Shown here: positions 7,681 through 30,577 of the stretch, one piece after another | Numbering within the stretch: position 1 is the first letter of the stretch | How the letters are laid out: each line of letters begins with the position of its first letter | Assembly: GCF_040144835.1 (NCBI RefSeq) | Contig: NZ_CP151632.1 | Coordinates: 1,240,001 to 1,304,000 of the forward strand | Direction of reading: 5' to 3' | DNA length: 64,000 bases | From: Microbacterium sp. LWS13-1.2 | GTDB lineage: Bacteria > Actinomycetota > Actinomycetes > Actinomycetales > Microbacteriaceae | Position numbers and translations under genes: made by a program | Notes under the pieces: model-generated | The model's input: the letters and a program-made list of their open reading frames with translations, nothing else | Databases searched by the model: none | What the model was told of the DNA's origin: nothing

Positions 7681-7712
7681 CGACCGATCCGACTGAATCG
7701 AAGAGGACAATC

Positions 7713-14436: not shown

Positions 14437-15498
14437 TCATCGCTCCGCGATGTGGGCGTGAGCGGTGCCGGCAGCGACATCCGCCGTGTCGTAGGTGAAG
14501 ACGAGCCGCGCCGGAACGGTGCCGGCAAGGACCTCGTCGACGGACGCGTTGACCTCGTCGAGCTCGCGTGTCTGCGTGATCACACGCGTGCGACCGGCCG
14601 CGTGGAGGTCGAACACCTCGACGAGGTCCTGTCGCGTTCCCACGATGGAGCCGATCACGCTGATGCCCTTGAGCACCGTGTCGAAGATCGGAATCGTCAA
14701 CGTGCCGTCGGCCGGCAGCGACACCAGCACCAATCGGCCGCCGCGGTTGAGGGCGTCGAACGCCTGCCGGAAGACGGTCGGTGCGACCGCGAGCATCACG
14801 GCGGCGTCTGCTCCGCCGAGGTCACGGATCGCCTGCACTGGATCGGTGGTCTTCGCATTCACGACGTGGTCGGCGCCCAGTTCGGACGCGAGCGCGAGCT
14901 TCTCCTCGGTGACATCGACCGCGATCACCTTCGCGCCGACGAGGCGCGCGTACTGCACGGCGAGATGACCGAGGCCGCCGACACCGAAGACCGCGACGGT
15001 CTCTCCCGGAATGATCCGGGCGTTCTTGATCGCCGCATACGTCGTGACGCCCGCGCACGTCAGCGGAGCGGCATCCAGTGGAGTGACGGCATCGGGAACC
15101 GGAACCGCGAAGCGCGGATCGGCCAGCATGTACTCGGCATAGCCGCCGTCCACGCCGTAGCCGTTGTTGTACTGCTGCTCGCAGAGGTTCTCGCGACCGT
15201 CGATGCAGTAGCGGCACTCGCCGCACGCGTGACCGAGCCACGGCATCGCCACGCGCTGTCCGAGCGTTCGACTGGTGACGCCGTCACCGAGCTGCTCGAT
15301 GATGCCCACGCCCTCGTGCCCCGGCACGAGCGGCAGCGGCGGCTTGACCGGCCAGTCTCCATGCATCGCATGGATGTCGGTGTGGCAGAGCCCGCAGGCC
15401 TCGAGCCGCACCAGGACCTGTCCGTGCCCTGGCTCGGGAATCGGCCGCTCCTCGATCTGCGCGGCTGCTCCGAACTCTCGGACGACTGCTGCCCTCAT
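14437..15498 (-). CDS. adhP: Zinc-dependent alcohol dehydrogenase
   Basis: This 353-aa medium-chain dehydrogenase oxidises primary alcohols or reduces aldehydes with NAD(H). Zn ligands are visible: C38-H39 in CGLCHTDIH, the GHEGVG stretch, and the structural-Zn cluster CGECRYC with a fourth Cys in ENLCE. The Rossmann motif GVGGLGHLAVQYA follows. The long open frame to 16428 is misleading. MRAAVVREF at 15498 has a GGAGGAG ribosome binding site. A DosR-like box lies 62 bp upstream, which fits fermentative NADH re-oxidation under low oxygen. Confidence 0.9.
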   Translation of the reverse strand: MRAAVVREFGAAAQIEERPIPEPGHGQVLVRLEACGLCHTDIHAMHGDWPVKPPLPLVPGHEGVGIIEQLGDGVTSRTLGQRVAMPWLGHACGECRYCIDGRENLCEQQYNNGYGVDGGYAEYMLADPRFAVPVPDAVTPLDAAPLTCAGVTTYAAIKNARIIPGETVAVFGVGGLGHLAVQYARLVGAKVIAVDVTEEKLALASELGADHVVNAKTTDPVQAIRDLGGADAAVMLAVAPTVFRQAFDALNRGGRLVLVSLPADGTLTIPIFDTVLKGISVIGSIVGTRQDLVEVFDLHAAGRTRVITQTRELDEVNASVDEVLAGTVPARLVFTYDTADVAAGTAHAHIAER

Positions 15499-15559
15499 GA
15501 CTGTCTCCTCCATCGAATCGGTACGTCCTCCAGTCTTCGCCGCCGCATCGGACGCTGCC

Positions 15560-15573
15560 GGGACGTAAGTCCC
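15560..15573 (-). promoter_or_regulatory. DosR-box-like site upstream of adhP
   Basis: GGGAC-GTAA-GTCCC, perfect in both half-sites, 62 bp upstream of the adhP start. It matches the core of the mycobacterial DosR box (GGGAC-N4-GTCCC) and recurs near the devS/devR genes in this window. Confidence 0.7.
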
Positions 15574-15629
15574 GCAGGCTCGCCAGGCGCGAGAGGCGAC
15601 AAGCACCACGATGCGTGGCCGACGACGAG

Positions 15630-16298
15630 CTACAGCCGGGAGATGCCCATCCCGACGATGAGAAGGCCGATCACGACGAGGATGGCGCTGGTCAGCAGGC
15701 CGCCGTTGGTCTCCATCCACAGATGCGCCGCAACCAGGCGCGGCTGCATCCGGGTCGGTGAGGCGGCCGTCACGATGATCGGAAAGGCGACGGTGGATGC
15801 CGCGACCACGGTGTAAATGATCACCGGGATGATCGCGACACGGACCGAGCCGGCGTCGGCATAAAGGGTCAGGCCGGCGGCCAGGGCGAGCACGACGCCC
15901 TTGGGGCGGAGATTGAGGATGAAGCCCAGCCCCAGCGCCGACCAGGCGCCCATCTTCGCCTCGGCGCGCATCCACTTCGGAGTCGTCGCCGCCACCCCGC
16001 TCCGGCGCCGACGGAACCACGAGAGCACGCCGAGCAGCATCGCCGCGACTCCTAGCGCGATCTCCACGATGGCGACGGCGGTGTCGGGCTGCCGGTCGGT
16101 GCGCGAGGTGGGGAGCACGCTCGCGAACAGCGCCGCAATGGAGACCGTCAGCACGATGCCGACGACCCAGCCGATGAGAAACGGCACCGCCGAGCGGGAC
16201 CGGTTCGGAGACAGCAGGATGAGGATCGTCGTCACGATGGGGACGGAGCTGATGGCGACCGCGGTCGCGATGATCAGCAGGTGACCGATAGTCGACAC
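15630..16298 (-). CDS. GAP (Sap) family six-helix membrane protein
   Basis: A 222-aa integral membrane protein with about six hydrophobic helices (for example IGHLLIIATAVAISSVP, VPFLIGWVVGIVLTV, LTSAILVVIGLLIVG). The pattern fits the GAP/Sap family, whose mycobacterial members help export glycopeptidolipid or sulfolipid. The fold is distantly LysE-like. I choose GTG 16298 (VSTIGHLL) because GGGAAGG precedes it; the frame could extend to 16433. It lies upstream of adhP on the same strand with a 131-bp gap, so co-transcription is uncertain. The transported molecule is unknown. Confidence 0.7.
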   Translation of the reverse strand: MSTIGHLLIIATAVAISSVPIVTTILILLSPNRSRSAVPFLIGWVVGIVLTVSIAALFASVLPTSRTDRQPDTAVAIVEIALGVAAMLLGVLSWFRRRRSGVAATTPKWMRAEAKMGAWSALGLGFILNLRPKGVVLALAAGLTLYADAGSVRVAIIPVIIYTVVAASTVAFPIIVTAASPTRMQPRLVAAHLWMETNGGLLTSAILVVIGLLIVGMGISRL

Positions 16299-16606
16299 GA
16301 CCGCCCTTCCCAGCCCTGGTCCGTGAGACAGGCCCCTCACCGAAGTGAAGCACAGATGGACAATGAAATGCCGCTTGGGAATTGTCATCACCCGTTCGTG
16401 GTGAAGTGTCACGAGTATCCGAGAGCATTTCATTCGCCCCGAATTGCCTCCCGCAGTTTCATTGACACCGGATCGAAGCCGGGAGTAGGCATGGTCCGTA
16501 CCGTCGTCGGCGAACCTCGCAAGAGTCCGCCGCCGACCGAATCGGACCCTGGGGGGTCCTCGACGGCAGGGGAAACTGAAGATGGCTTACGGCGGAGAGC
16601 ACGAAG
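16299..16606. other. Divergent promoter region, GAP gene / glutamate decarboxylase
   Basis: This 308-bp gap holds no gene. It has two inverted repeats: AATGAAATGC (16362-16371) with its complement at 16425-16434, and GGACCC-N4-GGGTCC at 16544-16559, 48 bp before the decarboxylase start. The second has the halves of a DosR box turned inside out and does not match that box. It may bind another regulator. Confidence 0.45.
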
Positions 16607-18001
16607 ATGCTGCATAAGAAGGATGACGTCCGCGATGAGCTGCTCGATGAGGTCTTCGCATCGGGAGACCTCTCGGTGTCGCTGCCGAAGTACCGCATGC
16701 CCGAGAAGGAGCATCTCGCACGCCACGCGTACCAGGTCGTCGTCGACGAACTGATGCTCGACGGCAACTCGCGTCAGAACCTCGCGACGTTCTGCCAGAC
16801 CTGGCTCGAGCCCGAGATCCGGTCGATCATGGCCGACACGCTCGACAAGAACATGGTCGACAAGGACGAGTATCCGCAGACGGCCGAGATCGAGGCGCGC
16901 TGCGTCCACATCCTCGCCGATCTCTGGAACTCGCCCGAGGCGCAGAACACGCTCGGCACGTCGACCACCGGCTCGAGCGAGGCCGCGATGCTCGGCGGCA
17001 TGGCGCTGCTGTGGAATTGGCGCGCCCGACGGCGCGAGGCCGGCAAGCCGACCGACAAGCCGAACCTCATCTGCGGACCGGTGCAGGTGTGCTGGCACAA
17101 GTTCGCCCGGTACTGGGATGTCGAACTGCGTGAGATCCCGATGGAGGGCGACCGCTTCATCATGAACGCCGACGAGGTGATCAAGCGGGTCGACGAGAAC
17201 ACCATCGGCGTCGTCCCGACGCTCGGCGTCACGTTCACCGGCCAGTACGAGCCCGTGCACGACGTGAGCGATGCACTCGACAAGCTACAGGCAGACACCG
17301 GGCTCGACATCCCGATCCACGTCGACGGCGCGAGCGGCGGCTTCATCGCCCCGTTCACCGTGCCCGAGCTGGTGTGGGACTTCCGCCTGCCGCGGGTGAA
17401 GTCCATCAACACGTCGGGACACAAGTTCGGCCTGGCCCCGCTCGGAGTGGGATGGATCGTCTGGCGGGATGCCGCGGAGCTACCCGAAGACCTGATCTTC
17501 AATGTCAACTACCTCGGTGGCAACATGCCGACATTCGCCCTGAACTTCTCGCGCCCTGGCGGTCAGATCGTCGCGCAGTACTACAACTTCCTGCGTCTCG
17601 GACGCGAGGGCTACCGCAAGGTGCACGAGTCGTGCCACGACACGTCGATGTACCTCGCGGAGGAGATCCGCAAGCTCGGCCACTTCGACATCATCAACAA
17701 CGGGGGCGCCGAGTCCGGCATCCCGGCCGTGTCGTGGAAGCTCAAGGAGGGCGTCGATCATCCGTTCACGCTGTTCGACCTCGCCGACCGGCTGCGCACG
17801 CGCGGCTGGCAGGTGCCCGCGTACACCATGCCGGCCGATCGACAGGACCTTCCCGTGCAGCGGATCCTGGTGCGGCAGGGCTTCGGGCGTGATGAGGCGT
17901 CGCTTCTCATGGCCGACTACCGTGCGGCGATCGAGCACTTCGACAAGCACCCGATCGTCAACTCCATGACCGAAGAGGAAGCCGGCAGCTTCCACCACTG
18001 A
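16607..18001 (+). CDS. gadB: Glutamate decarboxylase
   Basis: The 464-aa PLP enzyme converts glutamate to GABA and CO2, consuming a proton in the cytoplasm. The Schiff-base lysine is in SGHKFG (K273), preceded by the PLP-Asp region [24 protein letters not shown] near residue 125 is typical of group II glutamate decarboxylases. Length and motifs match GadB. The bacterial C-terminal His region ends in FHH. No GABA antiporter gene is adjacent. It stands alone between the GAP gene and the PPOX gene, followed by a strong terminator. Acid resistance or a GABA shunt are the usual roles. Confidence 0.93.
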
Positions 18002-18011
18002 CGGACGTCGT

Positions 18012-18043
18012 GCCTGGCGGACGCCCGAGCGCGTCCGCCAGGC
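18012..18043 (+). terminator. Hairpin terminator after glutamate decarboxylase
   Basis: Perfect 13-bp stem (18012-18024 with 18031-18043), 6-nt loop, 10 bp past the stop codon. Confidence 0.8.
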
Positions 18044-18067
18044 GACCACCCCGACTCCACAATCCGC

Positions 18068-18081
18068 GGGACCTTGGGCCC
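18068..18081 (+). promoter_or_regulatory. DosR-box-like site upstream of the PPOX gene
   Basis: GGGAC-CTTG-GGCCC, one mismatch from the GGGAC-N4-GTCCC core, 75 bp upstream of the PPOX-fold gene start. Confidence 0.55.
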
Positions 18082-18155
18082 CCTCGTCCGCGGCGGCATG
18101 GGATTCGCTGGGGCTGGGGCCGCGATGCGGCGATCAGACCGGTGGAGGTGACGTC

Positions 18156-18608
18156 ATGGGCGGGACGAGCAACGACGCGATTTCGACGCTGACCGAAGAG
18201 GAGTGCTGGGACCTGCTGGCACGGCACGAACTGGGCCGGCTTGCCGTGGCGGTGAACAGCGAGCCGGACATCTTCCCCATCAACTATGTGGTCGACGGGC
18301 CCCGCGTGCTTTTTCGCACTGCTCCCGGCTCGAAGCTCGCCGAGCTCTCGGCCAACCCTCGCGTCGCGTTCGAAGTCGACGAGCACGACGACACCTTCGG
18401 CGCGAGCGTCGTGCTGAAGGGCGTCGCCACGCGACTGGAGCTGCAGCGTGAGATCGACCTCGCCGACGCTCTCCCCCTCACCCCCTGGACACCTACGCTC
18501 AAGTACCGCTGGATGCGGATCACGCCGGTCTCGATCACAGGTCGACGTTTCCATCGCGGACCCGAGCCGGACCGCTACGCCGCGTCATCGGGCGACGCCT
18601 GGACCTGA
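18156..18608 (+). CDS. Pyridoxamine-5'-phosphate-oxidase-fold flavoprotein
   Basis: A 150-aa split-barrel protein of the PPOX family. Markers are the helix LTEEECWDLLARHELGRLAV, the strand IFPINYVVDG and the cofactor loop FRTAPGSKLAEL. Such proteins bind FMN or F420. Relatives are members of the mycobacterial DosR regulon. The start has a GGTGGAGGTGA ribosome binding site. It lies between a DosR-like box and the sensor-kinase gene, so a redox role tied to that system is likely; the substrate is unknown. Confidence 0.8.
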   Translation: MGGTSNDAISTLTEEECWDLLARHELGRLAVAVNSEPDIFPINYVVDGPRVLFRTAPGSKLAELSANPRVAFEVDEHDDTFGASVVLKGVATRLELQREIDLADALPLTPWTPTLKYRWMRITPVSITGRRFHRGPEPDRYAASSGDAWT

Positions 18609-18664
18609 CGCCGCGCGGGGCGGATTCCGGTGCGAGCCGGACGACGTCGTCCTTCGGTCTCGTC

Positions 18665-18678
18665 GGGTCGAAGGTCCC
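18665..18678 (+). promoter_or_regulatory. DosR-box-like site upstream of the sensor kinase
   Basis: GGGTC-GAAG-GTCCC; its complement GGGACCTTCGACCC is identical to two other sites in the window (25604 and 30252). It lies 114 bp upstream of the kinase start, suggesting autoregulation. A perfect palindrome GGACGACGTCGTCC centred exactly 26 bp upstream (18639-18652) has the wrong internal spacing for the same box. Confidence 0.6.
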
Positions 18679-18791
18679 GGCGGGGCCGGTGAGCAAGCGC
18701 CGACCGGTTCCGGACAGCTGCGCGCACGGGCACTGGCGGTGTGGCGCGCCCGGCCCTACGTTGGCCGTAACGGCAGTGGAGGAGGACCACA

Positions 18792-20519
18792 GTGGTCGAG
18801 CCCGGCTCGCTGTCATTTCCCGACGGACCTCGCTCTGAGCTCGAAGACGCAATCAGCGCCTTGGTTGCGCAGAGCGCGAAGGTGATGAGAACGCAGGGCC
18901 GCCTGCGGGCACTGCTGCGCGCCAATCAGGCCGTCGTCGAGCAGAGCGACCTCACGCTCGTGCTCCGCAGCATCATCGAGGCGGCCGTCGAGCTGGTCGA
19001 TGCGCGGTACGGAGCGATGGGCGTCATCAGTCCCGAGCGCGACGCGCTGGAGCAGTTCATCTATGTCGGCCTGTCGGAAGAGGATGCCGCGGCGATCGGG
19101 CATCTGCCTGAGGGGCGCGGCCTCCTCGGTGCGCTGATCACCGACTCCCGGCCGATCCTCCTGGCGGAGATGGAGGGCGATCCCCGCGCCGCCGGCTTCC
19201 CTCCCCATCATCCCCCGATGCATTCGTTCCTCGGTGTGGCCGTCCGCGTCGGCGACGAGGTCTTCGGAAATCTCTACCTGACGAATCACCGCGACGGCGG
19301 CTTCAGCGAAGAGGATGAACAGCTGCTGGAAGCACTCGCAGCGACGGCGGGGTTCGCGATCGGGAACGCGCGGCTCCTCGCGGAAGCAAAAGTCCGCGCG
19401 CACTGGATGACGGCGGCGGCCGAGCTGTCCGCCGCCATCCTGTCGACCTCGACAACCACCGCCCTGGATCTCCTCGTGACACGGGTGCGCGAGGTCTCCG
19501 GGGCCGAGCAGGTCACCATCCTCCTGCCGACTGAGGACGATGGCCGGTTCCGTGTCGCCGCGACGAACGGCGAGGCGGAAGCCGTCCTGCGCGCCACGGA
19601 GATCGACCCCAGCACGGTGTTCGCCGGCCGGGTGCTCGACGACCCTCGGCCGCACACGCAGCCGCGACGGCCCATCGACGCAGACGACCCGCTTCTCATC
19701 GTCCGGGAGGGAGTGAGTGGTCCGGTGATGGCGATCCCGTTGCAGAACGGGCCGCTGTTCTGGGGAGTGATGTGCATCTCTCGCAGTCCCGACGACAGCC
19801 GGTTCTCACCGGCTGAGACAGAGGGGGCCGTCGACCTCAGCTCGCGAGCGATCCTCGCGCTCGAGCTCGCGCGCGCCGGCGAGGAGGCCCAGCGCGCGCT
19901 CCTCGCCGACGATCGACGGCGGATCGCGCGCGACCTGCACGATCACGTCATCCAGCAGCTCTTCGGTGCCGGACTCGGCCTACAGGCCCTCGCCAGCAGC
20001 GTCGGTCCGGGCCCAGCGGCGGACGGAATCAGCGACACGATCGACCAGTTGGACGACGCGATCGCCCAGATCAGAACCGTCATCTTCGCGCTCTCGCACC
20101 GCGACGACACGTCCGTTCGCCATCGCGTCCTCGATGTGGTCGGCGAGGTCTCGAGCGGGGCGCGCCGGCCGCCCGCTATCCGATTCAACGGTCCGGTCGA
20201 CCTCCTCGTCCGCGACGAGCTGGCAACCGACGTCGTCGCCGTCGCCCGCGAGCTCCTCTGCAACTCGATCCGCCATGCTCAGGCGGACCACGTTTCGCTC
20301 GACGTCACGGCGTCCGACGACAAGGTCACCGTCGTCGTCGAAGACGACGGTGGAGGAATCCCCGCGGACGCCGCACTCAGCGGACTGGACAACCTCCGCC
20401 AGCGCGCAGAGCAGCGGCGGGGCGCCTTCGCCGTGGAGTCCTCGCCCACCGGTACGACGGTTCGCTGGATCGCCCCGACCGGGTCGGCATCCGGCACCAG
20501 CCTGAAGGAGAGCGGATGA
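18792..20519 (+). CDS. devS: GAF-domain sensor histidine kinase, DosS/DevS type
   Basis: This 575-aa kinase has two GAF domains (about residues 55-195 and 220-360), a HisKA_3 dimerisation helix with phospho-acceptor His383 in ARDLHDHVIQQLF, and a C-terminal ATPase with LLCNSIRHA (N box) and EDDGGGIP (G box). The order matches mycobacterial DosS/DosT. GAF-A contains FPPHHPPMHSFLG (His139/His140), the same neighbourhood as the haem-ligand histidine of DosS, so haem-based oxygen, CO or NO sensing is plausible but not proven. There are no membrane helices, so it is cytosolic. GTG start. Its stop overlaps the response-regulator start (ATGA), so the two are coupled. Confidence 0.9.
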   Translation: MVEPGSLSFPDGPRSELEDAISALVAQSAKVMRTQGRLRALLRANQAVVEQSDLTLVLRSIIEAAVELVDARYGAMGVISPERDALEQFIYVGLSEEDAAAIGHLPEGRGLLGALITDSRPILLAEMEGDPRAAGFPPHHPPMHSFLGVAVRVGDEVFGNLYLTNHRDGGFSEEDEQLLEALAATAGFAIGNARLLAEAKVRAHWMTAAAELSAAILSTSTTTALDLLVTRVREVSGAEQVTILLPTEDDGRFRVAATNGEAEAVLRATEIDPSTVFAGRVLDDPRPHTQPRRPIDADDPLLIVREGVSGPVMAIPLQNGPLFWGVMCISRSPDDSRFSPAETEGAVDLSSRAILALELARAGEEAQRALLADDRRRIARDLHDHVIQQLFGAGLGLQALASSVGPGPAADGISDTIDQLDDAIAQIRTVIFALSHRDDTSVRHRVLDVVGEVSSGARRPPAIRFNGPVDLLVRDELATDVVAVARELLCNSIRHAQADHVSLDVTASDDKVTVVVEDDGGGIPADAALSGLDNLRQRAEQRRGAFAVESSPTGTTVRWIAPTGSASGTSLKESG

Positions 20520-21151
20520 TCACCGTCTTCCTCGTCGACGACCACGAGATCGTCCGCCGCGGACTTGCGGGGCTCGTCGGCGCGCAGCCCGACATGGAAG
20601 TGATCGGCGAAGCCGGCACGGCGCGTCAGTCCCTGGGCAGGATCGAGGCGACCAAGCCCGACGTGGCGGTGCTCGATGTGCGGCTGCCCGACGGCAGCGG
20701 CATCGACGTCTGCCGGGACGTGCGCTCGCGTCTGCCGTCGGTGGCGTGCTTGATCCTCACTGCCTACGACGACGACACCGCCGTCTCGGCCGCGGTGCTG
20801 GCGGGTGCAGCCGGCTATGTACTGAAGAACATCGGCGGATCCGGCCTGGTGGATGCGATCCGCGCGGTGGCCGGCGGGCGCACTCTGCTCGACCCGGACG
20901 CCGTGACGCGTGCGAAGGCGGGCATGCACGATCGAGCGGACGAGGATCCGCGTCTGGGCTCACTGGGGCTGCGGGAGCGGCAGACGCTCAAGCTGATCGC
21001 CGACGGTCTGACGAACCGGCAGATCGGCGAACGGCTCGGCATCGCGGAGAAGACGGTGAAGAACTACGTCTCGTCGATGCTGAGCAAGCTCGGTCTGGAG
21101 CGCCGGACCCAGGCCGCGATCTTCCAGCTCGAGCACCCCGATCCGGACTAG
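20516..21151 (+). CDS. devR: NarL/FixJ-type response regulator, DosR/DevR type
   Basis: The 211-aa regulator has a receiver domain with phospho-acceptor D54 (VLDVRLPDGSG), the same number as in M. tuberculosis DosR. Conserved DDHE is at the N-terminus, and the linker and GerE helix-turn-helix follow. The recognition helix region AEKTVKNYVSSMLSKLGLERRTQAA.. is nearly that of DosR, which explains why DosR-like boxes occur around it. It overlaps the kinase gene by 4 bp and forms a two-gene operon. It should bind the GGGAC-N4-GTCCC sites listed here; this is inferred from the recognition helix. Confidence 0.92.
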   Translation: MITVFLVDDHEIVRRGLAGLVGAQPDMEVIGEAGTARQSLGRIEATKPDVAVLDVRLPDGSGIDVCRDVRSRLPSVACLILTAYDDDTAVSAAVLAGAAGYVLKNIGGSGLVDAIRAVAGGRTLLDPDAVTRAKAGMHDRADEDPRLGSLGLRERQTLKLIADGLTNRQIGERLGIAEKTVKNYVSSMLSKLGLERRTQAAIFQLEHPDPD

Positions 21152-21190
21152 CGCCGTATTCCGCCCCGTGTGCCGGACACCGCCATGAGC

Positions 21191-22090
21191 TTAGAGCGCC
21201 TGTTGCGATCCTGAGCCCGGACCGTCCGCCGAGGCGGCAGACGGCGTGAGATCCCGCTCGATCCTCCCCGCCCGCACCGGCGGCACGACGCACACCGGGC
21301 AGTCCGCCCTCCACAGCACCTCCTGCGCGACCGAGCCGAGCAGCGTTCCGGCCAGTACTCCCCTGCGATGCGTCCCGATGAGCAGCAGAGACGATCTCGA
21401 GGCGAATCGGAGAAGGGCCGCAGATCGACTGTCGCGGATCAGCTCCTTCGTGACCGAGAGGGTGGGGCGCCGGCGCGCCACCTCTCGGGCGGTGTCGTCG
21501 AGTATCCGACGGTGTCCATCGATCACCACCGCCGGGTCCACCGTGAGCGCGGTGCCGTAGTCGAAGGTGGGGCTGGGCATCAGCCACGAATGCACCAGGC
21601 GCAGCCCCGTCCCTGTCGTGCTCGCTTCCCCGATGCCGAAGTCCAGTGCAGCGTCCGAGGAATCGTCGTCCGCGATGCCCACCGTCACGGGATCACCGCC
21701 CTCGGTCCACCCGGCAGGAACGATGCACACCGGCGTCTGGACACGCAGGCTCAGACGCAGCGGTGTCCAGCCGTTCGCGGCGGCTCGTATCGGGTGCCCG
21801 GTGTGGATCCCGATCACGACGAGGTCCGCTCCTTGCGCGGCCTCCGCGAGCGACGCGGTCACCTCCCCGTCGAGGCGATGCAGTTCGACCTCGAGGCCGG
21901 GAATGCGCTCCCGCAGGGCGGCCTCCGCCTCCGCGAGGCGCTCGACGCCCGGAGTGCGGTCCTTCGTCGAAGGCGAGGCCACCAGGACGACATCGACCTT
22001 GGTCATCCCGCGAGCCGAACGCGCCGCCGTCCAGTTGAGCGCCGAGACCGCCGCGGGGCTGCCGTCATAGCCGAGGACGATGCGTTCCAT
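21191..22090 (-). CDS. Universal stress protein, tandem USP domains
   Basis: The 299-aa protein has two USP domains (residues 1-130 and 135-280). The second has the ATP-binding loop GTHRRGVLAGTLLGS followed by VLWRADCPVCVVP. Tandem USPs of this size are hallmark DosR-regulon products in mycobacteria (dormancy, ATP sensing). The start MERIVLGYDGS at 22090 has GGGAG upstream; the open frame to 22270 is not used. It is convergent with the response regulator and divergent from the SDR gene, with a perfect DosR-like box 70 bp upstream. Confidence 0.9.
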   Translation of the reverse strand: MERIVLGYDGSPAAVSALNWTAARSARGMTKVDVVLVASPSTKDRTPGVERLAEAEAALRERIPGLEVELHRLDGEVTASLAEAAQGADLVVIGIHTGHPIRAAANGWTPLRLSLRVQTPVCIVPAGWTEGGDPVTVGIADDDSSDAALDFGIGEASTTGTGLRLVHSWLMPSPTFDYGTALTVDPAVVIDGHRRILDDTAREVARRRPTLSVTKELIRDSRSAALLRFASRSSLLLIGTHRRGVLAGTLLGSVAQEVLWRADCPVCVVPPVRAGRIERDLTPSAASADGPGSGSQQAL

Positions 22091-22159
22091 GGGAGTCTCC
22101 CTTCCCCGGTGCCGGAGTGGCTCCTCTCTTGAACGTAGCCAGGCCGATCTCGCGGGGCC

Positions 22160-22173
22160 GGGACGTAGGTCCC
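22160..22173. promoter_or_regulatory. DosR-box-like site between usp and SDR genes
   Basis: GGGAC-GTAG-GTCCC with both half-sites perfect. It is 70 bp upstream of the stress-protein gene and 96 bp upstream of the SDR gene, so one site could serve both directions. Confidence 0.7.
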
Positions 22174-22198
22174 GCCGTGCGGACGCCCGCCGCCGCCA

Positions 22199-22230
22199 CG
22201 CAGGACCAAAGCCCCGCGAATGGTCCTGCG
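22199..22230 (+). promoter_or_regulatory. Inverted repeat upstream of the SDR gene
   Basis: Perfect 10-bp arms CGCAGGACCA and complement (22221-22230) with a 12-nt centre, ending 38 bp before the SDR start. It may be an operator or a leader hairpin. Confidence 0.4.
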
Positions 22231-22268
22231 GACGCGGTCGACTGTGGGGACAGGGAGAGGACGACATC

Positions 22269-23021
22269 ATGTCTCATGTGGCGAACCGTTTCACCGGATG
22301 CACCATCATCGTCACGGGCGGAGGGGCGGGCATCGGCAGGGCCACGGTCGAGCGACTCGTCGCAGAGGGTGGTCGAGTCGTCGCGGTCGACGTGTCGGCG
22401 GACCGCCTGACCGCCCTGACCGACGAGGTCCAGGGCGACGTCACGACCGTCGCCGCCGACATCACCGATCCGGCGTCGACCGCTCGGATCCTGGATGCCG
22501 CCGGACCGAGGATCGACGGGCTTGCGAACGTCGCGGGGATCATGGACGGCTTCGAACCGACCGCCGAGATCGCCGACGCGACATGGGATCGTGTGCTGGC
22601 CGTGAATCTGACGGCCATGATGCGGCTGACGCGCGCCGTGCTCCCTCCGATGCTCGTGCGGGGCATGGGAAGCATCGTCAACGTCGGCTCCGAGGCGGGT
22701 CAGCGCGGCTCCGCCGCCGGCACGCCGTACACGACGTCGAAGCACGCCGTGAACGGATTCTCCAAGAGCACCGCGTTCTTCTACACGCCGAAGGGCATCC
22801 GCTGCAACGCCGTCGCGCCCGGACCCGTCGCAACCAGCATCGAAGCGCCGTTCCACTCCGAGTGGGCCGGAGAACGTCTCGGACCGCTGTTCCAGACCAA
22901 TATCCCGCGCGTCGCTCGTCCCGAGGAGCTCGCCGCCGCCATCACCTGGCTGCTGAGCGACGACGCGTCGAATGTGTCGGGCGCCATCCTCTCGGTCGAC
23001 GGCGGCTGGGCCTCGATCTGA
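22269..23021 (+). CDS. Short-chain dehydrogenase/reductase
   Basis: The 250-aa SDR has the cofactor motif TGGGAGIG (residues 16-23), the NVAG strand, and the catalytic pair Y154-TTS-K158 after a serine-containing strand. The D in VVAVDVS suggests NAD(H) preference. The ending SGAILSVDGGWAS is typical of classical SDRs. The start at 22269 has GGGAGAGGA upstream; the longer frame from 22080 runs through the promoter. Its substrate is unknown. Location beside the DosR-like box links it to the low-oxygen set. Confidence 0.88.
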   Translation: MSHVANRFTGCTIIVTGGGAGIGRATVERLVAEGGRVVAVDVSADRLTALTDEVQGDVTTVAADITDPASTARILDAAGPRIDGLANVAGIMDGFEPTAEIADATWDRVLAVNLTAMMRLTRAVLPPMLVRGMGSIVNVGSEAGQRGSAAGTPYTTSKHAVNGFSKSTAFFYTPKGIRCNAVAPGPVATSIEAPFHSEWAGERLGPLFQTNIPRVARPEELAAAITWLLSDDASNVSGAILSVDGGWASI

Positions 23022-23042
23022 CCACCCGCCTCCGGGCGATCA

Positions 23043-23078
23043 CGACCACGACCACGAGTGCGGCCGTGGTCGTGGTCG
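23043..23078. terminator. Bidirectional terminator between SDR and PEP synthase
   Basis: Perfect 14-bp stem of alternating CGACCACG repeats (23043-23056 with 23065-23078), 8-nt loop, placed between two convergent stops. Confidence 0.85.
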
Positions 23079-23086
23079 GCTGCGTG

Positions 23087-25471
23087 TCAGACCTTGACCG
23101 CGGAGAGTTCCGCCAGCCGCAGCCATGTCTCGACGATGGCGTCGGCGTTGAGCGACATCGAATCGATGCCGCGTGCCAGCAGCCACTCGGCCAGGTCGGG
23201 GTGGTCCGAGGGACCTTGGCCGCAGATCCCGATGTACTTGCCCCGCCGTGTGCACGCTTCGATGGCGCGTTCGAGCAGATCGAGCACCGCCGGGTCGCGC
23301 TCGTCGAAGGACGCGGCGACCAGGGCGGAGTCGCGGTCGACGCCGAGGGTCAGCTGGGTCAGGTCGTTGGAGCCGATGGAGAACCCGTCGAAGTGATCGA
23401 GGAAGGCATCCGCCAGCAGCGCGTTGGAGGGGATCTCGCACATCATCACGACCTCGAGCCCGTTCTCGCCACGGCGAAGGCCGTTCTCCGCGAGGAGGGC
23501 GACGGTCGCCGCAGCCTCGTCGACGGTGCGGACGAACGGGATCATGATCTTGAGATTCGTGAGCCCCATCCGATCGCGGACGTGGCGCAGCGCCTCGCAC
23601 TCCATATCGAAGCAGGCACGGAAGCTCGGGGTCGTGTAGCGGGATGCCCCGCGCCATCCGAGCATCGGATTCTCTTCGTGGGGTTCGAAGAGGTCACCGC
23701 CGAGAAGACCGGCGTACTCGTTGGTCTTGAAGTCGCTCATCCGGACGATGACAGGTTTTGGCGCGAACGCGGCGGCGATGGTCGAGACGCCCTCCGCCAC
23801 CCTCTGGACGAAGAAGTCACGGGGTGAGGGGTAGGCGGCCGTCCGCTGCGCGACCTCGCTCTTCAGCGGTTCCGCCAGCAAATCGAACTCGGCGAGCGCA
23901 CGCGGGTGGATGCCGATCGCGCGGTTGATGATGAACTCCAGCCGCGCGAGGCCGACGCCGCGGTTGGGCAGCTGCGCAAGAGTGAACGCCTGGTCGGGCA
24001 CGCCGACGTTCAGCATGAGGTCCACCGCGAGCTCTGGGATCCGATCCAGCGGGGTCTCTTCGATGGCGTAATCGAGGATGCCTCGGTACACGAGCCCGTC
24101 ATCGCCCTCCGAACAGGCCACGGTCACGCCGGTCCCGTCGGTCAGCGTCTCTGTTCCCGTCCCCGTTCCCACGACGGCGGGGATCCCCAGCTCGCGCGCG
24201 ACGATGGCGGCGTGACAGGTCCGGCCGCCGCTGTCGGTGACGATCGCCGAAGCCATCCTCATGATCGGCTCCCAGTCGGGGTCGGTGCGGTCGGCCACCA
24301 GCACGTCGCCAGTCTGGAAGAGATGCATCAGGCTGAGGTCGTGCATCACCCGCACCGGGCCGTGGCCGATCTTCTCACCGACGGCGCGACCGGCTGCGAG
24401 CACATCGCCACGCGCTCGCAGCACGTAGCGGCGCAGCACACTGCTGTCTCTCCGGGTGACGACGGTCTCAGGCCGGGCCTGAACGATGTACAGCGAGCCG
24501 TCCACGCCGTCGAGCGCCCATTCGATATCCATCGGGTGGCCGTAGTGGGATTCGATGGCGAGGGCGCCGCGCGCCAGCTCCTCGACCTGCTCGTCCGTGA
24601 GGCTGAATCGCGAACGGTCGCCGGCGGCGACGTCGGTGAGGACCGTGCTGTCGCCGACTCGCGTGCCTGCCGCATATCGGAGCGCGACCGCCTTGGTCCC
24701 CAGCTCACGGCGGAGGATCGACGGCCGCGCCGCGCGGAGAGCCGGCTTGTAGACGTAGAACTCGTCGGGATTCACGGCCCCCTGCACCACGGTCTCGCCC
24801 AGACCGTAGGCGCCCGTGATGAAGACGACATCGTCGAAGCCGGACTCGGTGTCGATCGTGAACATCACGCCCGAAGCCCCGACATCGGATCGAACCATGA
24901 GCTGCACGCCGGCGGAGATCGCGATGTCGTCCTCGTCGAATCCCCGTTGCGCCCGATAGACCAGCGCACGATCGGTGTAGAGCGAGGCGAAGACGCCTCG
25001 GATGGCCTCGAGCACGTTCTCGATGCCGTCGATGTTGAGGAACGTCTCCTGCTGTCCTGCGAAGGAGGCGTCGGGCAGGTCTTCCGCCGTCGCAGAGGAT
25101 CGCACCGCCCAGGTGACCTGGTCGGGATGGGCCTGCTCGGCGACCAGCGTCGCGTACGCCGCGCGGATGTCGTCGTTCAGGCCGGCCGGGAACGGCTGAC
25201 CCTCGATCCAGGTGCGGATGCGCGCCGCCACCACCGCGAGTTCACGGACGTCGCTGGTATCCAGGTCCGCCAGCTGGGCGCGGATCCGTGCCGAGAGGTC
25301 GCCGTGCGCGAGGAAGGCGCGGTACGCGTCAGCAGTCGTCGCGAAGCCCCCTGGGACACGGACGCCCGCACTGTGGATACGCGAGACCATCTCGCCGAGC
25401 GATGCGTTCTTGCCACCGACTCGTGGCAGGTCCGACATCGTGATGTCTCGGAACCAGAGCAGATTGGACAT
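23087..25471 (-). CDS. ppsA: Phosphoenolpyruvate synthase (pyruvate, water dikinase)
   Basis: The 794-aa enzyme makes PEP from pyruvate with ATP giving AMP and Pi. It has an N-terminal ATP-grasp nucleotidyl domain ([23 protein letters not shown]), a phospho-His swivelling domain with [16 protein letters not shown] (His420), and a C-terminal PEP-binding barrel ([15 protein letters not shown]) ending in the Cys region [11 protein letters not shown]. The order fits PpsA rather than PpdK. In mycobacterial DosR regulons a PEP-synthase-like gene is also a member. It is divergent from the flavodoxin gene, and two DosR-like boxes lie between. Confidence 0.93.
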
Positions 25472-25603
25472 GTCGTGCGTCTCCTATGACTAGAGCCGTG
25501 AGCCGAGCGCGGGAGGAGGCGGCCAGAAGCCGAACCCGACCGCGGCGCGATCACAGCGTGTGCGCTCCTGAGGCCATGCTCTTCACGCGCCCACGGGAGC
25601 GCA

Positions 25604-25617
25604 GGGTCGAAGGTCCC
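25604..25617. promoter_or_regulatory. DosR-box-like site 1 between ppsA and flavodoxin genes
   Basis: GGGTC-GAAG-GTCCC, identical on the other strand to the site at 30252, 133 bp upstream of ppsA and 84 bp upstream of the flavodoxin gene. Confidence 0.6.
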
Positions 25618-25629
25618 GCCGCGGACGGC

Positions 25630-25643
25630 GGGACGTTCGGCCC
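25630..25643 (+). promoter_or_regulatory. DosR-box-like site 2 upstream of the flavodoxin gene
   Basis: GGGAC-GTTC-GGCCC, one mismatch from the core, centred exactly 26 bp after site 1 and 58 bp before the flavodoxin start. Paired boxes are usual at strongly DosR-controlled promoters. Confidence 0.5.
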
Positions 25644-25700
25644 AGTCATCGCCGAGCCGATCGAAGAGTCTGGGTGCATCAACGACGGAAGGAGCGGACG

Positions 25701-26225
25701 GTGAACGCACTGATCGTGTACGAGTCGATGTTCGGGAACACGCGCAAGCTCGCGGAGGCGATGGCAGGGGCGCTGGAGACGACGGGGGCCGACGTCACCG
25801 TCTCACCCGCCTGCGAGGCACCGGCCGACCTGAGCGACTACACGCTGGTCATCGTCGGAGCGCCCACCCACGCGCACAGCCTCCCCCGGCCGAAGTCTCG
25901 TGCCGAGGCCGTGGAGTGGGCGGTCGATCCGACGAAGAAGCTGAGCCTCGAGGAGACGGCCCGCTCAACGGGAGTGCGCGAGTGGCTCGAAGGGATCATG
26001 CTCGTCGGCAACCCCCGATTCGCCGTGTTCTCGACGCGAGCCGACATACCTCGGATCTTCTCGGGGGATGCGACCGCGGCGATCAGGAAGGGGCTCCGCC
26101 GCCGTCTCGCCGACGCCGACGCCCACGCCGACTTCCTCGTCGGTCTGGACAACCGGCTCCTCGAGGGCGAGGAGGGTCGGGCGAGCGAGTGGGCCGGCGG
26201 ACTGGTCGCCGTGCCCAGCGCATAA
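25701..26225 (+). CDS. Flavodoxin-like protein
   Basis: A 174-aa flavodoxin-fold protein starting at GTG 25701 with an AAGGAG ribosome binding site. The FMN-phosphate loop is ESMFGNTRKLAEA (residues 8-20), and the IVGAPTHAHSL strand-loop stacks on the flavin. It should be a cytoplasmic FMN electron carrier or an FMN-dependent reductase; the partner is not evident. Two DosR-like boxes precede it, and it may start a transcript running into the CPBP and ATPase genes (81-bp gap). Confidence 0.85.
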   Translation: MNALIVYESMFGNTRKLAEAMAGALETTGADVTVSPACEAPADLSDYTLVIVGAPTHAHSLPRPKSRAEAVEWAVDPTKKLSLEETARSTGVREWLEGIMLVGNPRFAVFSTRADIPRIFSGDATAAIRKGLRRRLADADAHADFLVGLDNRLLEGEEGRASEWAGGLVAVPSA

Positions 26226-26305
26226 CGGCGGCGGCATCATGAGCACGCTGCGTGCACTCGGCATCCTGCGTCGCCCTGCCCGCCCCACGCGGTGACGGAC
26301 GTCGG

Positions 26306-27331
26306 ATGAGCGCGTACGGCACGATCGAGCGCGGTGCGGCCGCGCGAACGGTCGCGTTCGCGACCATCGCGTTCGGGATCTCGTGGAGCCTGTGGTTCCT
26401 GCATCCGGTCGTCGCTCACGACCAGAGCCTCGCACTCACTCTGGACCAGCTCGCGACCTTCGGGCCGGCGGTCGCGGCATTGCTGGTGGCCGGCCACCGG
26501 GTCGCCGCCGGCGGCACGGATGCTCAGCCCCCGCGACTGCGCGTCATCGTCGCGGCGCTCGCAACTCTGACCGTCACTGTGCTGCTCCTCTCCCCGCGAT
26601 GGGCGGATGTGTCATCCCCGATGTCGGCCGCGCTGCTGGTCCTGCTGATCACGACTCCCGCAGCGCTGGTCTGGATCTCGGGAAGCCGCAACCCTCGTTT
26701 CGCGAAGCTGCTGTCCAGCATCCTGTCGCCGCGTTCGCCGTGGTGGACCTACCTCGTCGCCGTCCTGCTGTTCCCCGTGGCGAGCGCGCTGGGCAGCGGC
26801 CTGGTCACCCTGCTCGGCGCGGACGTCGGCTCGCAGCCGCTGGTGCTCGCGGAGGGATCGTGGACCGGCATCCTGATCGTCTTCGGCGTCACTCTGCTCT
26901 TCGGCGGGCCGCTCGGCGAGGAGATCGGATGGCGCGGATGGCTGCTTCCGACGTTGCAGGCGCGCCTGAGCCCGTTCCTCGCCAGCCTGATCGTGGGTGC
27001 CGTCTGGGGACTCTGGCACCTCCCGCTGCACCTGCGAGGCGTGTACGACGCCGGCATGGGCACGGGTCCGGCAGGCTTCGCCCTCCGCGTCGCCAGCAGC
27101 TGCCTGCTCGCGGTGATCTTCACCTGGCTGTACAACCGGTCGCGCGGCGGCCTGCTCGTCGTGATCCTGCTGCACACCTCGGTGAACAACACCTCGGGAT
27201 ACTGGCTGCCGGTGAATATCGGTCTCACGGCGGTGCTGCTCGTCATCGCCACCCTCATGGTGGTCACCGACCGGATGTACGTCCGTCCCCCGCAGGCGTC
27301 GCAACGCCGCAGCACCTGGATCCCGGCATGA
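26306..27331 (+). CDS. CPBP family intramembrane metalloprotease
   Basis: A 341-aa polytopic membrane protein with about eight helices. The CPBP/Abi motifs are complete: GEEIGWRGW (E205, E206, R210), WGLWHLPLH (H238, H242) and LLHTSVNN (H290, N294), which form the membrane-embedded active site. Substrates of bacterial members are mostly unknown. The start MSAYGTIERG is chosen over the upstream frame from 26252. Its stop overlaps the ATPase start by 4 bp (ATGA), so the pair is coupled, perhaps for processing or quality control of the pump. Confidence 0.88.
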   Translation: MSAYGTIERGAAARTVAFATIAFGISWSLWFLHPVVAHDQSLALTLDQLATFGPAVAALLVAGHRVAAGGTDAQPPRLRVIVAALATLTVTVLLLSPRWADVSSPMSAALLVLLITTPAALVWISGSRNPRFAKLLSSILSPRSPWWTYLVAVLLFPVASALGSGLVTLLGADVGSQPLVLAEGSWTGILIVFGVTLLFGGPLGEEIGWRGWLLPTLQARLSPFLASLIVGAVWGLWHLPLHLRGVYDAGMGTGPAGFALRVASSCLLAVIFTWLYNRSRGGLLVVILLHTSVNNTSGYWLPVNIGLTAVLLVIATLMVVTDRMYVRPPQASQRRSTWIPA

Positions 27332-30216
27332 CCGGGCACGAGCATCACGGCCCTCACGAAGGGCGAAGGCCTGCGGCGGAGGCTTCGACGCGGCCATCCT
27401 CGCCGGAGGCGTATCTCCTGGACGAAGACGAGGTGCTCGCACGCTACGGCACGCGCCGTGAAGGACTCACGTCGGAAGAGGTCATGGCACTCCGAGCCGA
27501 GTACGGCGACAATGTGATCGTCCGCGTGCACACGGAGCCGCTGGCGCTACGGTTCCTCCGCCAGTTCAAGGACTGGATGATCGTGCTGCTACTCGTCTGC
27601 GCCGCCATCACGGCATACCTGGGTGATTTGCTGACATCCGGGGTGCTCGTGCTGCTGGTCCTGCTCAACACATCGATCGGGTTCTTCCAGGAGTACCGCT
27701 CGGGCAAGACGATGGAGGCTCTGCAGCATCTGTCGCTCTCCCGCAGTCAGGTGCTCCGGGACGGAACCCTCACCGAACTCGACTCGACAGAGCTGGTCGT
27801 CGGCGATGTCGTCCGCCTGACGGAGGGCGCTTCGGTGCCGGCGGACACACGACTGATCGAGGCGAGCGCGTTCGCCACCAACGAGTTCGCCCTCACCGGC
27901 GAGAGCGATCCGACCCGCAAGTACACCCACCGCATCGCGACCGACGTCATGGTCGCCGAGAGACACAACGTCGCGCACGCCGGCACCACCGTGGCGACCG
28001 GCGAGGCAGTGGGGGTTGTGGTCGCCACCGGAACCCACTCGGAGCTCGGGCGCATCGCACAGCTCGCCGACGCGGCGCCGCAGACGCTGAGCCCCCTCCA
28101 GCGCGAGATGGGTCACATCGGCAGAGTGATCACCTACGCCACGTTCACCCTGGCACTCGTTCTCCTGGTGGTCGCGGTGTGGGCAGATCTGCCCCTGCAC
28201 GAGGCGGTGCTCTTCACCGTCGGATTCGCCAGCGCCGTGATACCCCAGGGCCTTCCGGCCGAGGTAAACACCGCTCTGGCGCAGGCAGCCTCGAGCCTCG
28301 CCGCTCGCAACGCGCTCGTGAAGCGATTGAGCGCCGTCGAGACGCTCGGCTCCACCCAGGTGATCTGCACCGACAAGACCGGAACGCTCACCAAGAACGA
28401 GATGACCGTCACCGGACTCGTGGCGGCCGGTCAGGAGTACATCGTTCGCGGGACCGGCTATGAGCCCGCCGGCGATGTCGAGTGGGCAGCCGACGCCGAC
28501 GCCGAGACACCACGCGATCGCGCCCGCCTCGTCGGCTTCCTCCGCGCGGGCGTGCTGGCCAGCAACGCCCGCCTGCTTCCCCCCGACGAGAAGCACCCGG
28601 CCTGGCATATCCTCGGCGACCCGACGGAGGCAGCGCTCCTCACCGTCGCCGCCAAGGCCGGCATCGACGTCCCCCGCGAGCGCCGGGAGCAGCGCAAGGT
28701 GCGCGAGTTCCCCTTCGATTCGTCGCGCAAGCTGATGACGGCCGTCCGCGAATCTCCCGACGGCACCCTGACCGCCTGGGTCAAGGGCGCGCCGGAGGCG
28801 GTCGTCGCGCGGGCCAGCCACATCGACGATGGCGGCGGCATCCGTCCCCTCACCGATGCCGACAGAGATGCCTTCCTCGCGCTCCACATCGCACGATCCG
28901 ACCGCGGTCTGCGCAACCTCGCCTACGCCTCGCGCGCGGCGACGCCTGCCGACGTGGCCGCGGTCGACCCGCTGGCCGTCGAGACGGGTCTGGTGCTCCT
29001 GGGGCTCGTCTCGATGGTCGACCCCATCCGCGATGAGGTTCCCGATGCGATGCGGCGTGCCATCGACGCCCGCGTCAAGGTGAACATCATCACCGGGGAC
29101 TTCTCCCGTACGGCTGAGGCGATCGCCCGCCAGGCGGGACTCGATCACGACCACGCGCTGACGGTCGTCACCGAAGACGAGCTGCGCCTCATGCGCGACG
29201 ACGAGGTGCTCTCCCGGGCGCTCGCGGGCGGCACCGTGTTCAGCCGCGTGGACCCCACCGACAAGACACGTATCGTCGATCTGGTCAAGAAGTCCGGTCG
29301 GATCGTGGCTGTCACGGGTGATGGCATCAACGACGCCCCGGCTCTTCGGCACGCCAGCATCGGCGTCGCCATGGGCGCGTCGGGCACCGACGTCGCGAAA
29401 GAGGCAGCCGAGATCGTCCTGCTCGACGACAGCTTCTCGACCTTGGTCGGCGCCGTCGAACAGGGGCGCGTGATCTACGCCAACATCAGCAAGGGCGTGA
29501 TCAGCTGTCTCACGTCGAACGCCGCCGAGCTCGTCGTCAACATCGTGAGCCTCGTCCTCGCCACGGTCGCGGGTCTGCCACTCGCGATCAACGTCATGCA
29601 GATCCTCGCCATCGATCTGCTGGGCGAGCTGCTGCCCATCGCCGCGTTGGGGCGCGATCCCGAGGAGGGCTCGGTAATGAAGCACGCACCGCGAGACCCG
29701 AAATCGCACATCGTCGGGCTGCGCAGCATCGGCAACCTGATGTACGCGGGTTCGATCATCGGCGTGCTGGCGATCGGCAACTATCTGCTGTTCTTCCAGC
29801 GAGAAGGGTCGTTCCCCTTCGCCGGGCCCGTCGATGCCTCACTGGTAGCACCGGCGACCACGATGACCTACGTCACGGTGCTCGTGTGCCAGTTCTTCAA
29901 CATCACGCAGCGGCGCAGCGAGCGCGGGCTGTTCACGCGCTACATCTTCTCCAACCCCACCTACTGGCTCGCCTGCGTCGCGGGCATCGGCATCATGCTC
30001 GCCATCGTCTACGTGCCCTGGCTGCAGACGGCGTTCCGCACCGGCCCGCTCGACGCGACGGACTGGGCCCTCGTGCTGCTCGCCGCTCTGATCTTCGTCG
30101 CGATCCGCGAGGCCGGACTCGCGCTGCGCAGACACGATCGCTGTGCGCGCGGACCGCGACCGACTCACGGCGAGCGCGGGCGTGCGGCCCGCGAGATCCG
30201 ACCGGCCAGCACCTAG
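27328..30216 (+). CDS. P-type cation-transporting ATPase (P2 type, CtpF-like)
   Basis: The 962-aa pump has the full P2-ATPase layout: an N-terminal cation-ATPase domain (ARYGTRREGLTSEEV), actuator TGES near residue 190, phosphorylation site CTDKTGTLT (D349), nucleotide domain KGAPEAVVARA, hinge GDGINDAPAL and six C-terminal helices. The membrane motif normally PEGLPA reads PQGLPA here (Gln307 for Glu), and that Glu is a cation ligand in Ca2+ and Na+ pumps, so ion choice may differ. CtpF, a relative, is in the mycobacterial DosR regulon. I do not name the ion. Confidence 0.88.
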   Translation: MTGHEHHGPHEGRRPAAEASTRPSSPEAYLLDEDEVLARYGTRREGLTSEEVMALRAEYGDNVIVRVHTEPLALRFLRQFKDWMIVLLLVCAAITAYLGDLLTSGVLVLLVLLNTSIGFFQEYRSGKTMEALQHLSLSRSQVLRDGTLTELDSTELVVGDVVRLTEGASVPADTRLIEASAFATNEFALTGESDPTRKYTHRIATDVMVAERHNVAHAGTTVATGEAVGVVVATGTHSELGRIAQLADAAPQTLSPLQREMGHIGRVITYATFTLALVLLVVAVWADLPLHEAVLFTVGFASAVIPQGLPAEVNTALAQAASSLAARNALVKRLSAVETLGSTQVICTDKTGTLTKNEMTVTGLVAAGQEYIVRGTGYEPAGDVEWAADADAETPRDRARLVGFLRAGVLASNARLLPPDEKHPAWHILGDPTEAALLTVAAKAGIDVPRERREQRKVREFPFDSSRKLMTAVRESPDGTLTAWVKGAPEAVVARASHIDDGGGIRPLTDADRDAFLALHIARSDRGLRNLAYASRAATPADVAAVDPLAVETGLVLLGLVSMVDPIRDEVPDAMRRAIDARVKVNIITGDFSRTAEAIARQAGLDHDHALTVVTEDELRLMRDDEVLSRALAGGTVFSRVDPTDKTRIVDLVKKSGRIVAVTGDGINDAPALRHASIGVAMGASGTDVAKEAAEIVLLDDSFSTLVGAVEQGRVIYANISKGVISCLTSNAAELVVNIVSLVLATVAGLPLAINVMQILAIDLLGELLPIAALGRDPEEGSVMKHAPRDPKSHIVGLRSIGNLMYAGSIIGVLAIGNYLLFFQREGSFPFAGPVDASLVAPATTMTYVTVLVCQFFNITQRRSERGLFTRYIFSNPTYWLACVAGIGIMLAIVYVPWLQTAFRTGPLDATDWALVLLAALIFVAIREAGLALRRHDRCARGPRPTHGERGRAAREIRPAST

Positions 30217-30251
30217 TCCGGATCGGGCAGGGTGGCGGCTCGCGAAGGATC

Positions 30252-30265
30252 GGGACCTTCGACCC
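30252..30265 (+). promoter_or_regulatory. DosR-box-like site after the ATPase gene
   Basis: GGGAC-CTTC-GACCC, the same 14-mer as the complements of the sites at 18665 and 25604. It lies 36 bp after the ATPase stop with no annotated gene downstream on the plus strand. Confidence 0.5.
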
Positions 30266-30449
30266 TGTTCGCCGGCGGGATCCGGGAGTGGACTGGGTTC
30301 GACGGAATGAGGTTGGACAGGTCGACGGACGACAAGCACGGTGTGGAGCGGGGTCAGAGGTGGACGCCATGCGCGACCTCCCCCGTTCTCTCCGAGGGCG
30401 TCGAGGACTTCGGTGTCCTGGGCGCGGCGCGATGCGCACCTCGACGACT

Positions 30450-30477
30450 TGTGCGGCATCCGGGGGGATGCCGCACA
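30450..30477 (+). terminator. Hairpin in the ATPase/LysR convergent gap
   Basis: Perfect 12-bp stem around a GGGG loop; could end the ATPase transcript or a short RNA started at the box at 30252. Confidence 0.5.
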
Positions 30478-30577
30478 GGTCGCAACTCCGGCATGAAGGC
30501 GCGGCTGCGGCGACCGGCTGCACTGGCGGCCGCTGACCGGCTGTACTGGCGGCCGCTGAGGACGCCGGCCGATCGCG

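Follow-up and report, generated by a model that had tools for sequence, protein, structure and literature searches.

Outside the mycobacteria, the closest described relative that we found of the dormancy switch of Mycobacterium tuberculosis, the DosS-DosT/DosR (DevR) system, is OsdKR of Streptomyces coelicolor. In electrophoretic mobility shift assays (EMSA) OsdR binds promoters that DevR targets in M. tuberculosis as well as the sites predicted for OsdR itself, and the EMSA-positive region of SCO5978/SCO5979 contains CGGGACCTTCGGCCCT; predicted OsdR targets include universal stress proteins (USPs), zinc dehydrogenases, a PPOX (pyridoxamine oxidase-like) protein and pyruvate phosphate dikinase (PMC5069765). 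In mycobacteria, DosR is reported to control tgs1 in M. tuberculosis and, in M. avium, USP and PPOX genes (PMC11876180), and Rv1997 is among 21 documented DosR genes (PMC2867773). We describe positions 14437-30265 of a 64,000-nucleotide stretch of Microbacterium sp. LWS13-1.2 (the window, G000:C1:1240001-1304000, in a source genome of 4.33 Mb on one contig that is labelled G000), where a DosS/DosR-type pair lies among putative stress genes and palindromic boxes, and which very probably holds a regulon core of DosS/DosR (OsdK/OsdR) type that works as proposed below. No report of a DosR regulon for Microbacterium or Microbacteriaceae was found among open-licence papers.

Results

Seven 14-bp palindromic boxes of the form GGGAC-N4-GNCCC, all of them matching GGGACNTNNGNCCC, surround the DosS/DosR pair (Table 1). 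The first-pass annotation had described seven sites of GGGAC-N4-GWCCC type in the gaps between genes; all seven exist, and all lie outside gene calls, in gaps that make up 9.5% of 14437-31501, but only five fit that formula, the boxes at 18068 and 25630 ending in GGCCC. One exact 14-mer, GGGACCTTCGACCC, does occur three times, as had been claimed. In the looser notation GGGNC-N4-GNCCC, palindromic boxes are present upstream of the regulator and of stress genes, including the USP gene near the regulator. The pattern GGGACNTNNGNCCC gives nine strand-matches (seven places) in the window against 0.31 expected, with none of 100 shuffles reaching nine, and seven places in 14437-30265 against a shuffle mean of 0.08 and a maximum of 2 (300 shuffles), figures that are optimistic because these very sites supplied the pattern. 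When one mismatch or none is allowed, GGGAC-N4-GWCCC is no commoner over the whole window than expected (18 against 23.0; 83 of 100 shuffles reach 18). With a matrix built from 13 clustered sites, the seven window boxes among them, these boxes score at least 15.2 and the next site in the window 11.9.

The DosS/DosR-like pair itself is borne out by Pfam domains and by best Protein Data Bank (PDB) matches to DevR and to DosT/DevS. The regulator is of NarL type and closest to DevR (3c3w, E 1.5e-68), with VraR next at 4e-41, a lead of about 90 bits. It aligns with M. tuberculosis DevR free of gaps over residues 1-206, of which 112 (54%) are identical, and retains D54, T198 and the recognition-helix core AEKTVKNYVS. 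Helix residues K179, K182 and N183 of DevR touch DNA bases.

The kinase has the architecture of a DosSR/OsdKR-type sensor: a GAF-A domain with proximal His and distal Tyr, a second GAF domain, HisKA_3 and an ATPase domain. GAF-A finds its best PDB matches in the GAF domains of DosT (2vzw) and DevS, and the kinase carries a haem-type His140, a ligand Tyr162, a DosT-type Gly77 and H383; the corresponding residues of M. tuberculosis DosS are His149, Tyr171 and Glu87, the last of which is Gly85 in DosT (PMC4082495). Among 77 aligned sequences, that of the window included, the haem-type His is present in 76, the Tyr in all 77 and the Gly in 76, the remaining sequence having a gap there. Hypoxia is suggested as the signal of DosS by these haem-pocket residues, which alone are no proof of oxygen sensing. 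The genome holds one full-length dosS match; two further matches (23% and 37% identity; E 2.3e-5 and 6.8e-5) both come from short segments of a single distant open reading frame (ORF), and the M. tuberculosis arrangement of two sensors, DosS plus DosT, is not seen in this genome. Among the best 80 of 571 matches, the nearest named DosS relatives are from Microbacterium, at 73% and 60% identity. Named Microbacterium rows are scattered in the DosS tree, with five label changes needed (loci L083, L084, L091, L098 and L046), and two dosS matches each are present in G001 and G023; either old paralogy or transfer could account for the scattered positions and the double matches.

Genome-wide, GGGACNTNNGNCCC occurs at 26 places (28 strand rows; 11 rows for a reversed-pattern control), and 13 of these lie in two clusters, 1255560-1270265 and 1474304-1487665, that together span about 28 kb, equal to 0.65% of the total length. 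The remaining 13 are close in number to the reversed-pattern background of 11, and nine of them are inside called genes. The first-pass annotation had named as evidence against itself a scan in which boxes were no commoner in promoters than in coding DNA; the scan gave instead this clustering, with the other places near background and mostly within genes. The four outlying places not inside called genes are 502522, 1372547, 3221884 and 3878428. That at 3221884 is GGGACCTTCGACCC, before a 144-amino-acid ORF without a Pfam match, and that at 3878428 (L030:6428) is within the long N-terminal portion of an ORF that encodes sigma-70 and zf-HC2 domains and whose true start may be downstream of the box. 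A tighter pattern, GGGACNTTNGNCCC, is matched in 13 rows here and its control in none.

The second cluster marks a second boxed island (G000:C1:1473036-1488454; L027 and L028), 204 kb from the first, and the initial view of a compact, self-contained island is thus not sustained. Its genes encode an ArsA-like ATPase, a P-type ATPase, an ABC1-type kinase, a TM2 protein, a short WS/DGAT, a GH65 enzyme, a beta-CASP protein and another USP, all read from the longest ORFs as called, with start codons uncurated; seven sites there have matrix scores of at least 17. The WS/DGAT gene (L027:16312-16896) encodes 194 amino acids with a partial catalytic domain and is possibly degraded. In genomes G105 and G144, relatives of the genes of both islands sit around dosS, with boxes. 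The proposed regulon is therefore split in the present genome, given the second boxed island here and the joint arrangement in those two.

A sample of 149 genomes of the genus, in which dosS was called at E values up to 1e-30, has dosS in 45 and lacks it in 104. The 45 genomes with dosS contain 210 rows of GGGACNTTNGNCCC against 45 for the reversed control (means of 4.7 and 1.0), and the 104 without it contain 77 against 92 (0.74 and 0.88), where perfect palindromes can count twice. The two groups differ with a Mann-Whitney p of 1.6e-16 (3.6e-16 without the present genome), values that are not corrected for kinship. Box abundance in the genus follows the presence of dosS, as expected of a DosSR/OsdKR-type system. 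In 18 other genomes with dosS, those for which all boxes were listed, 61 of 92 boxes are no further than 15 kb from that gene; the figure is 61 of 93 in 19 genomes with G029, whose single box is on a different contig from dosS.

Gene calling of relatives based on GC content at third codon positions (GC3) placed 144 of 238 boxes between genes, with 20% of bases intergenic, and was judged unreliable; box positions relative to relatives of the window genes were therefore used instead. We searched from -300 to +30, with the reversed pattern upstream and the pattern inside the gene as controls, dropping matches below 35% identity or, dosS excepted, starting after residue 45. A box is found upstream of dosS in 20 of 79 usable loci of relatives, and both controls give 0 of 79. 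For the other genes the counts of box, reversed pattern and inside-gene pattern, in that order, are 8, 1 and 0 of 11 loci for the zinc alcohol dehydrogenase (ADH), 4, 0 and 0 of 8 for the USP, 3, 0 and 0 of 4 for the short-chain dehydrogenase (SDR), 3, 0 and 0 of 5 for the phosphoenolpyruvate (PEP) synthase, 7, 1 and 0 of 13 for the flavodoxin, 8, 0 and 1 of 33 for PPOX, and 2, 0 and 0 of 66 for DosR, as expected for a gene inside an operon. G109 has a box between its USP and SDR genes, and G012 one before its USP gene.

Thirty PEP synthase loci, made from 52 matches, allow copies of the same enzyme to be compared. Those at 80% identity or more are boxed in five of five loci (G000, G012, G086, G109 and G112), in the first four near dosS and in G112 away from it, whereas the more distant copies are boxed in 0 of 25 and none is near dosS; the 80% line was set after the result was seen, and a few lower-identity copies near dosS fall outside the 30. 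A lower-identity copy near dosS in G144 is boxed too. In the corresponding comparison for ADH (30 loci from 45 matches), relatives at 67% identity or more are boxed in 15 of 21 loci of genomes with dosS and in neither of two loci of genomes without it, and none of seven more distant relatives is boxed; in nine of the 15 boxed loci the box is at -69 to -75. We tie the boxes to DosSR because their numbers follow dosS and because of the five-of-five against none-of-25 split among PEP synthase copies.

Gene identities within the island (Table 1) come from Pfam and NCBIfam profile matches to the window proteins, which bear out the tandem USP, PPOX protein, PEP synthase and CtpF-type ATPase of the first-pass annotation. 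The last is a CtpF-like cation P-type ATPase, and Rv1997 (ctpF) is its mycobacterial counterpart among the genes named above. Its gene start overlaps the stop of the CAAX protease gene. The PEP synthase, which had been presented as a relative of a mycobacterial DosR target, fares differently: none is apparent in the list of 21 documented DosR genes (PMC2867773), and the parallel is rather the pyruvate phosphate dikinase that OsdR is predicted to control in Streptomyces (PMC5069765). A further PEP synthase copy, 71% identical to that of the island, is at G000:C1:2043804-2046176.

Table 1. Genes and boxes of the island, in window positions.
Feature	Coordinates	Strand	Basis or placement
Zinc ADH	14437..15498	-	Pfam PF00107/PF08240; start codon read from sequence
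Box GGGACGTAAGTCCC	15560..15573	.	upstream of ADH
SfLAP-type membrane protein	within 15630-18001		
Glutamate decarboxylase	16607..18001	+	NCBIfam TIGR01788
Box GGGACCTTGGGCCC	18068..18081	+	upstream of PPOX gene; ends GGCCC
PPOX protein	18156..18608	+	Pfam PF12900
Box GGGACCTTCGACCC	18665..18678	-	upstream of dosSR, 113 bp before dosS GTG start
DosS/DosT-type sensor histidine kinase	18792..20519	+	Pfam: 2 GAF, HisKA_3, HATPase_c
DosR/DevR-type response regulator, 211 aa	20516..21151	+	best PDB match DevR 3c3w
Tandem USP	21191..22090	-	Pfam Usp, two stretches
Box GGGACGTAGGTCCC	22160..22173	.	between divergent USP and SDR genes
SDR	22269..23021	+	Pfam adh_short
PEP synthase	23087..25471	-	NCBIfam PEP_synth
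Box GGGACCTTCGACCC	25604..25617	-	upstream of PEP synthase
Box GGGACGTTCGGCCC	25630..25643	+	upstream of flavodoxin operon; ends GGCCC
Flavodoxin	25701..26225	+	Pfam Flavodoxin_5/1; candidate start, ORF open from 25674
CPBP/CAAX-type membrane protease	26252..27331	+	Pfam PF02517
Cation P-type ATPase (CtpF-like)	27328..30216	+	Pfam E1-E2_ATPase, NCBIfam P-type families; start ATG 27328
Box GGGACCTTCGACCC	30252..30265	+	gap between convergent ATPase and lysR genes

The SfLAP protein and the glutamate decarboxylase lie inside the island and have no box of their own, there being no matrix match of 6 or more in 16433-16607 upstream of the latter; each was matched in one of 85 loci searched. To the left of the island, two sulfatases flank a GH3 glycosidase at 3560-9221, a possible cluster for utilisation of sulfated glycans. 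Rfam and tRNA scans of the window gave no match. The flanking genes, for a LysR and a MalT-type regulator, were used to seek an insertion site of the island among the 149 genomes, and no clean empty site was found there; the left-flank protein is present in 14 of them (E up to 1e-150) and the LysR in 61 (E up to 1e-90), lying 6.9 kb from dosS in G105 and far from dosS in G109.

The gap after the ATPase gene (30217-30577) contains, downstream of the box at 30252, a hairpin at 30445..30482 with 17-nucleotide arms that are 94% complementary, which is a possible terminator, and also a 23-bp tandem repeat; the fold of 30280-30577 is better than that of shuffles (z -4.3). Full-length conservation of the gap is not seen in the genus, short partial matches alone occurring in 29 of 148 other genomes, and G109 has no box after its ATPase gene. 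We considered this box as the promoter of a small RNA similar to the DosR-driven DrrS/MTS1338, and given the poor conservation and the lack of a box in G109 set this aside as a weak lead; a Dos-driven transcript and a relic are both possible.

Discussion

At the level of sequence, the identities of the genes, the pocket residues, the boxes, their co-occurrence with dosS and their conserved placement are established, and the DosR-type regulon first proposed is well supported by the best matches to DevR, DosT and DevS and by a box number that follows dosS. From this we infer a signal of haem and oxygen, phosphotransfer, DNA binding and activation, as follows. DosS, as a GAF kinase with haem in a pocket of DosT type, would bind oxygen, and a drop in oxygen, or the binding of nitric oxide (NO) or carbon monoxide (CO), would lead it to phosphorylate DosR. 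Phosphorylated DosR would bind the GGGAC-N4-GNCCC palindromes, located 30-132 bp ahead of start codons, and would activate dosSR, the tandem USP, SDR, PPOX and zinc ADH genes, the island's own PEP synthase gene (one of two copies in the genome) and the flavodoxin-CAAX-ATPase operon, and also the second island 204 kb away.

Several observations weigh against this reading. A -10 element (TANNNT, 10-40 nucleotides behind the box) is seen only for the USP gene, and in the second island four of its seven strong sites run into the ends of the longest ORFs as called (15084, 16930, 19484 and 22991 of the joined stretch). In the genus, the 300 bp before dosS contain no match to the box pattern used in 59 of the 79 relatives, six of the 21 ADH relatives in genomes with dosS are unboxed, three of the 45 genomes with dosS have no box row at all, and two of the 104 without it have three or more. 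Lastly, PolR of Microlunatus phosphovorus is given as 76% identical to DevR and is reported to bind a different direct repeat (PMC6754071), so that orthology alone does not fix the binding site.

The case of PolR also lends something to the view that the boxes serve another NarL/LuxR-family regulator and just happen to cluster near DosSR, with DosSR controlling other genes, as does the roughly one third of boxes counted in genomes with dosS that lie away from it. We nevertheless regard this as improbable, since the box excess is confined to genomes of the genus that have dosS, most boxes counted are within 15 kb of that gene, the recognition-helix core of DosR is identical to that of DevR, and the same box core is found in the EMSA-positive SCO5978/SCO5979 region bound by OsdR (PMC5069765). 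It is scarcely credible that the boxes are functionless GC palindromes driven by composition: the one-mismatch form is not enriched in the window, and one of 20 column-permuted matrices gave 240 matches in relatives' loci against 238 for the real one (median 60), but the strict count in the shuffled region, the placement of every box in a gap, the reversed-pattern controls and the PEP synthase copies all speak against composition.

A rather unlikely alternative, though one of more substance, accepts that DosR acts at the boxes and holds that the signal is redox state or NO and CO, not falling oxygen. Some authors have put forward redox sensing as the role of M. tuberculosis DosS, and both DosS and DosT are responsive to NO and CO (PMC4082495, PMC5069765), while a review calls the data on DosS oxidation conflicting (PMC4082495). 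Glu87, tied to autooxidation in DosS, is however Gly here as in DosT, and is Gly in all 76 aligned sequences with a letter at that position, which argues against this alternative.

We suggest tentatively, with slightly more doubt than confidence, that the Dos system of Microbacterium is an accessory module, in which the sensor and regulator are gained or lost together with the boxed promoters and with gene copies dedicated to Dos, all of these sometimes being split into islands. If true, a dormancy programme could enter or leave a genome in one piece. With the DosS/DosR reading itself, the dormancy switch of tuberculosis bacteria extends to a genus with dosS in under a third of the genomes sampled, which provides a natural series of presence and absence for studying, outside the mycobacteria, how boxes are gained and lost, how targets are chosen and how a single sensor detects oxygen.

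Comparison with known systems

PolS-PolR shares with the present locus a two-GAF, DevS-like kinase and a DevR-like regulator with a proposed role in oxygen sensing, but its reported site, GTTCACnnnnnGTTCaC, and its polyphosphate and phosphate targets differ, and that site is not the Microbacterium box (PMC6754071). Likeness to the mycobacterial DosS-DosT/DosR system is seen in the 54% identity and shared helix core of DosR, in the haem-type GAF sensor, and in the relatives that the USP, PPOX, tgs1 and Rv1997 targets have in the Microbacterium islands. Here, however, there is one sensor only, of DosT type at the Glu87/Gly85 position; ADH, SDR, PEP synthase and flavodoxin are added, and no small heat-shock or nitroreductase domain is found among the island proteins annotated. 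From OsdKR the locus differs in that the kinase gene precedes that of the regulator, whereas Streptomyces has an osdR-osdK operon, in the prevalence of forms such as GGGACCTTCGACCC over the Streptomyces consensus AGGGCCGATCGGCCCT, and in that no nitrate reductase or developmental genes are among the island genes annotated here. Both have a DosS/DosR-type pair with boxes around the regulator genes, and the SCO5978/SCO5979 site GGGACCTTCGGCCC recurs in this Microbacterium at C1:1474396 and 3878428.

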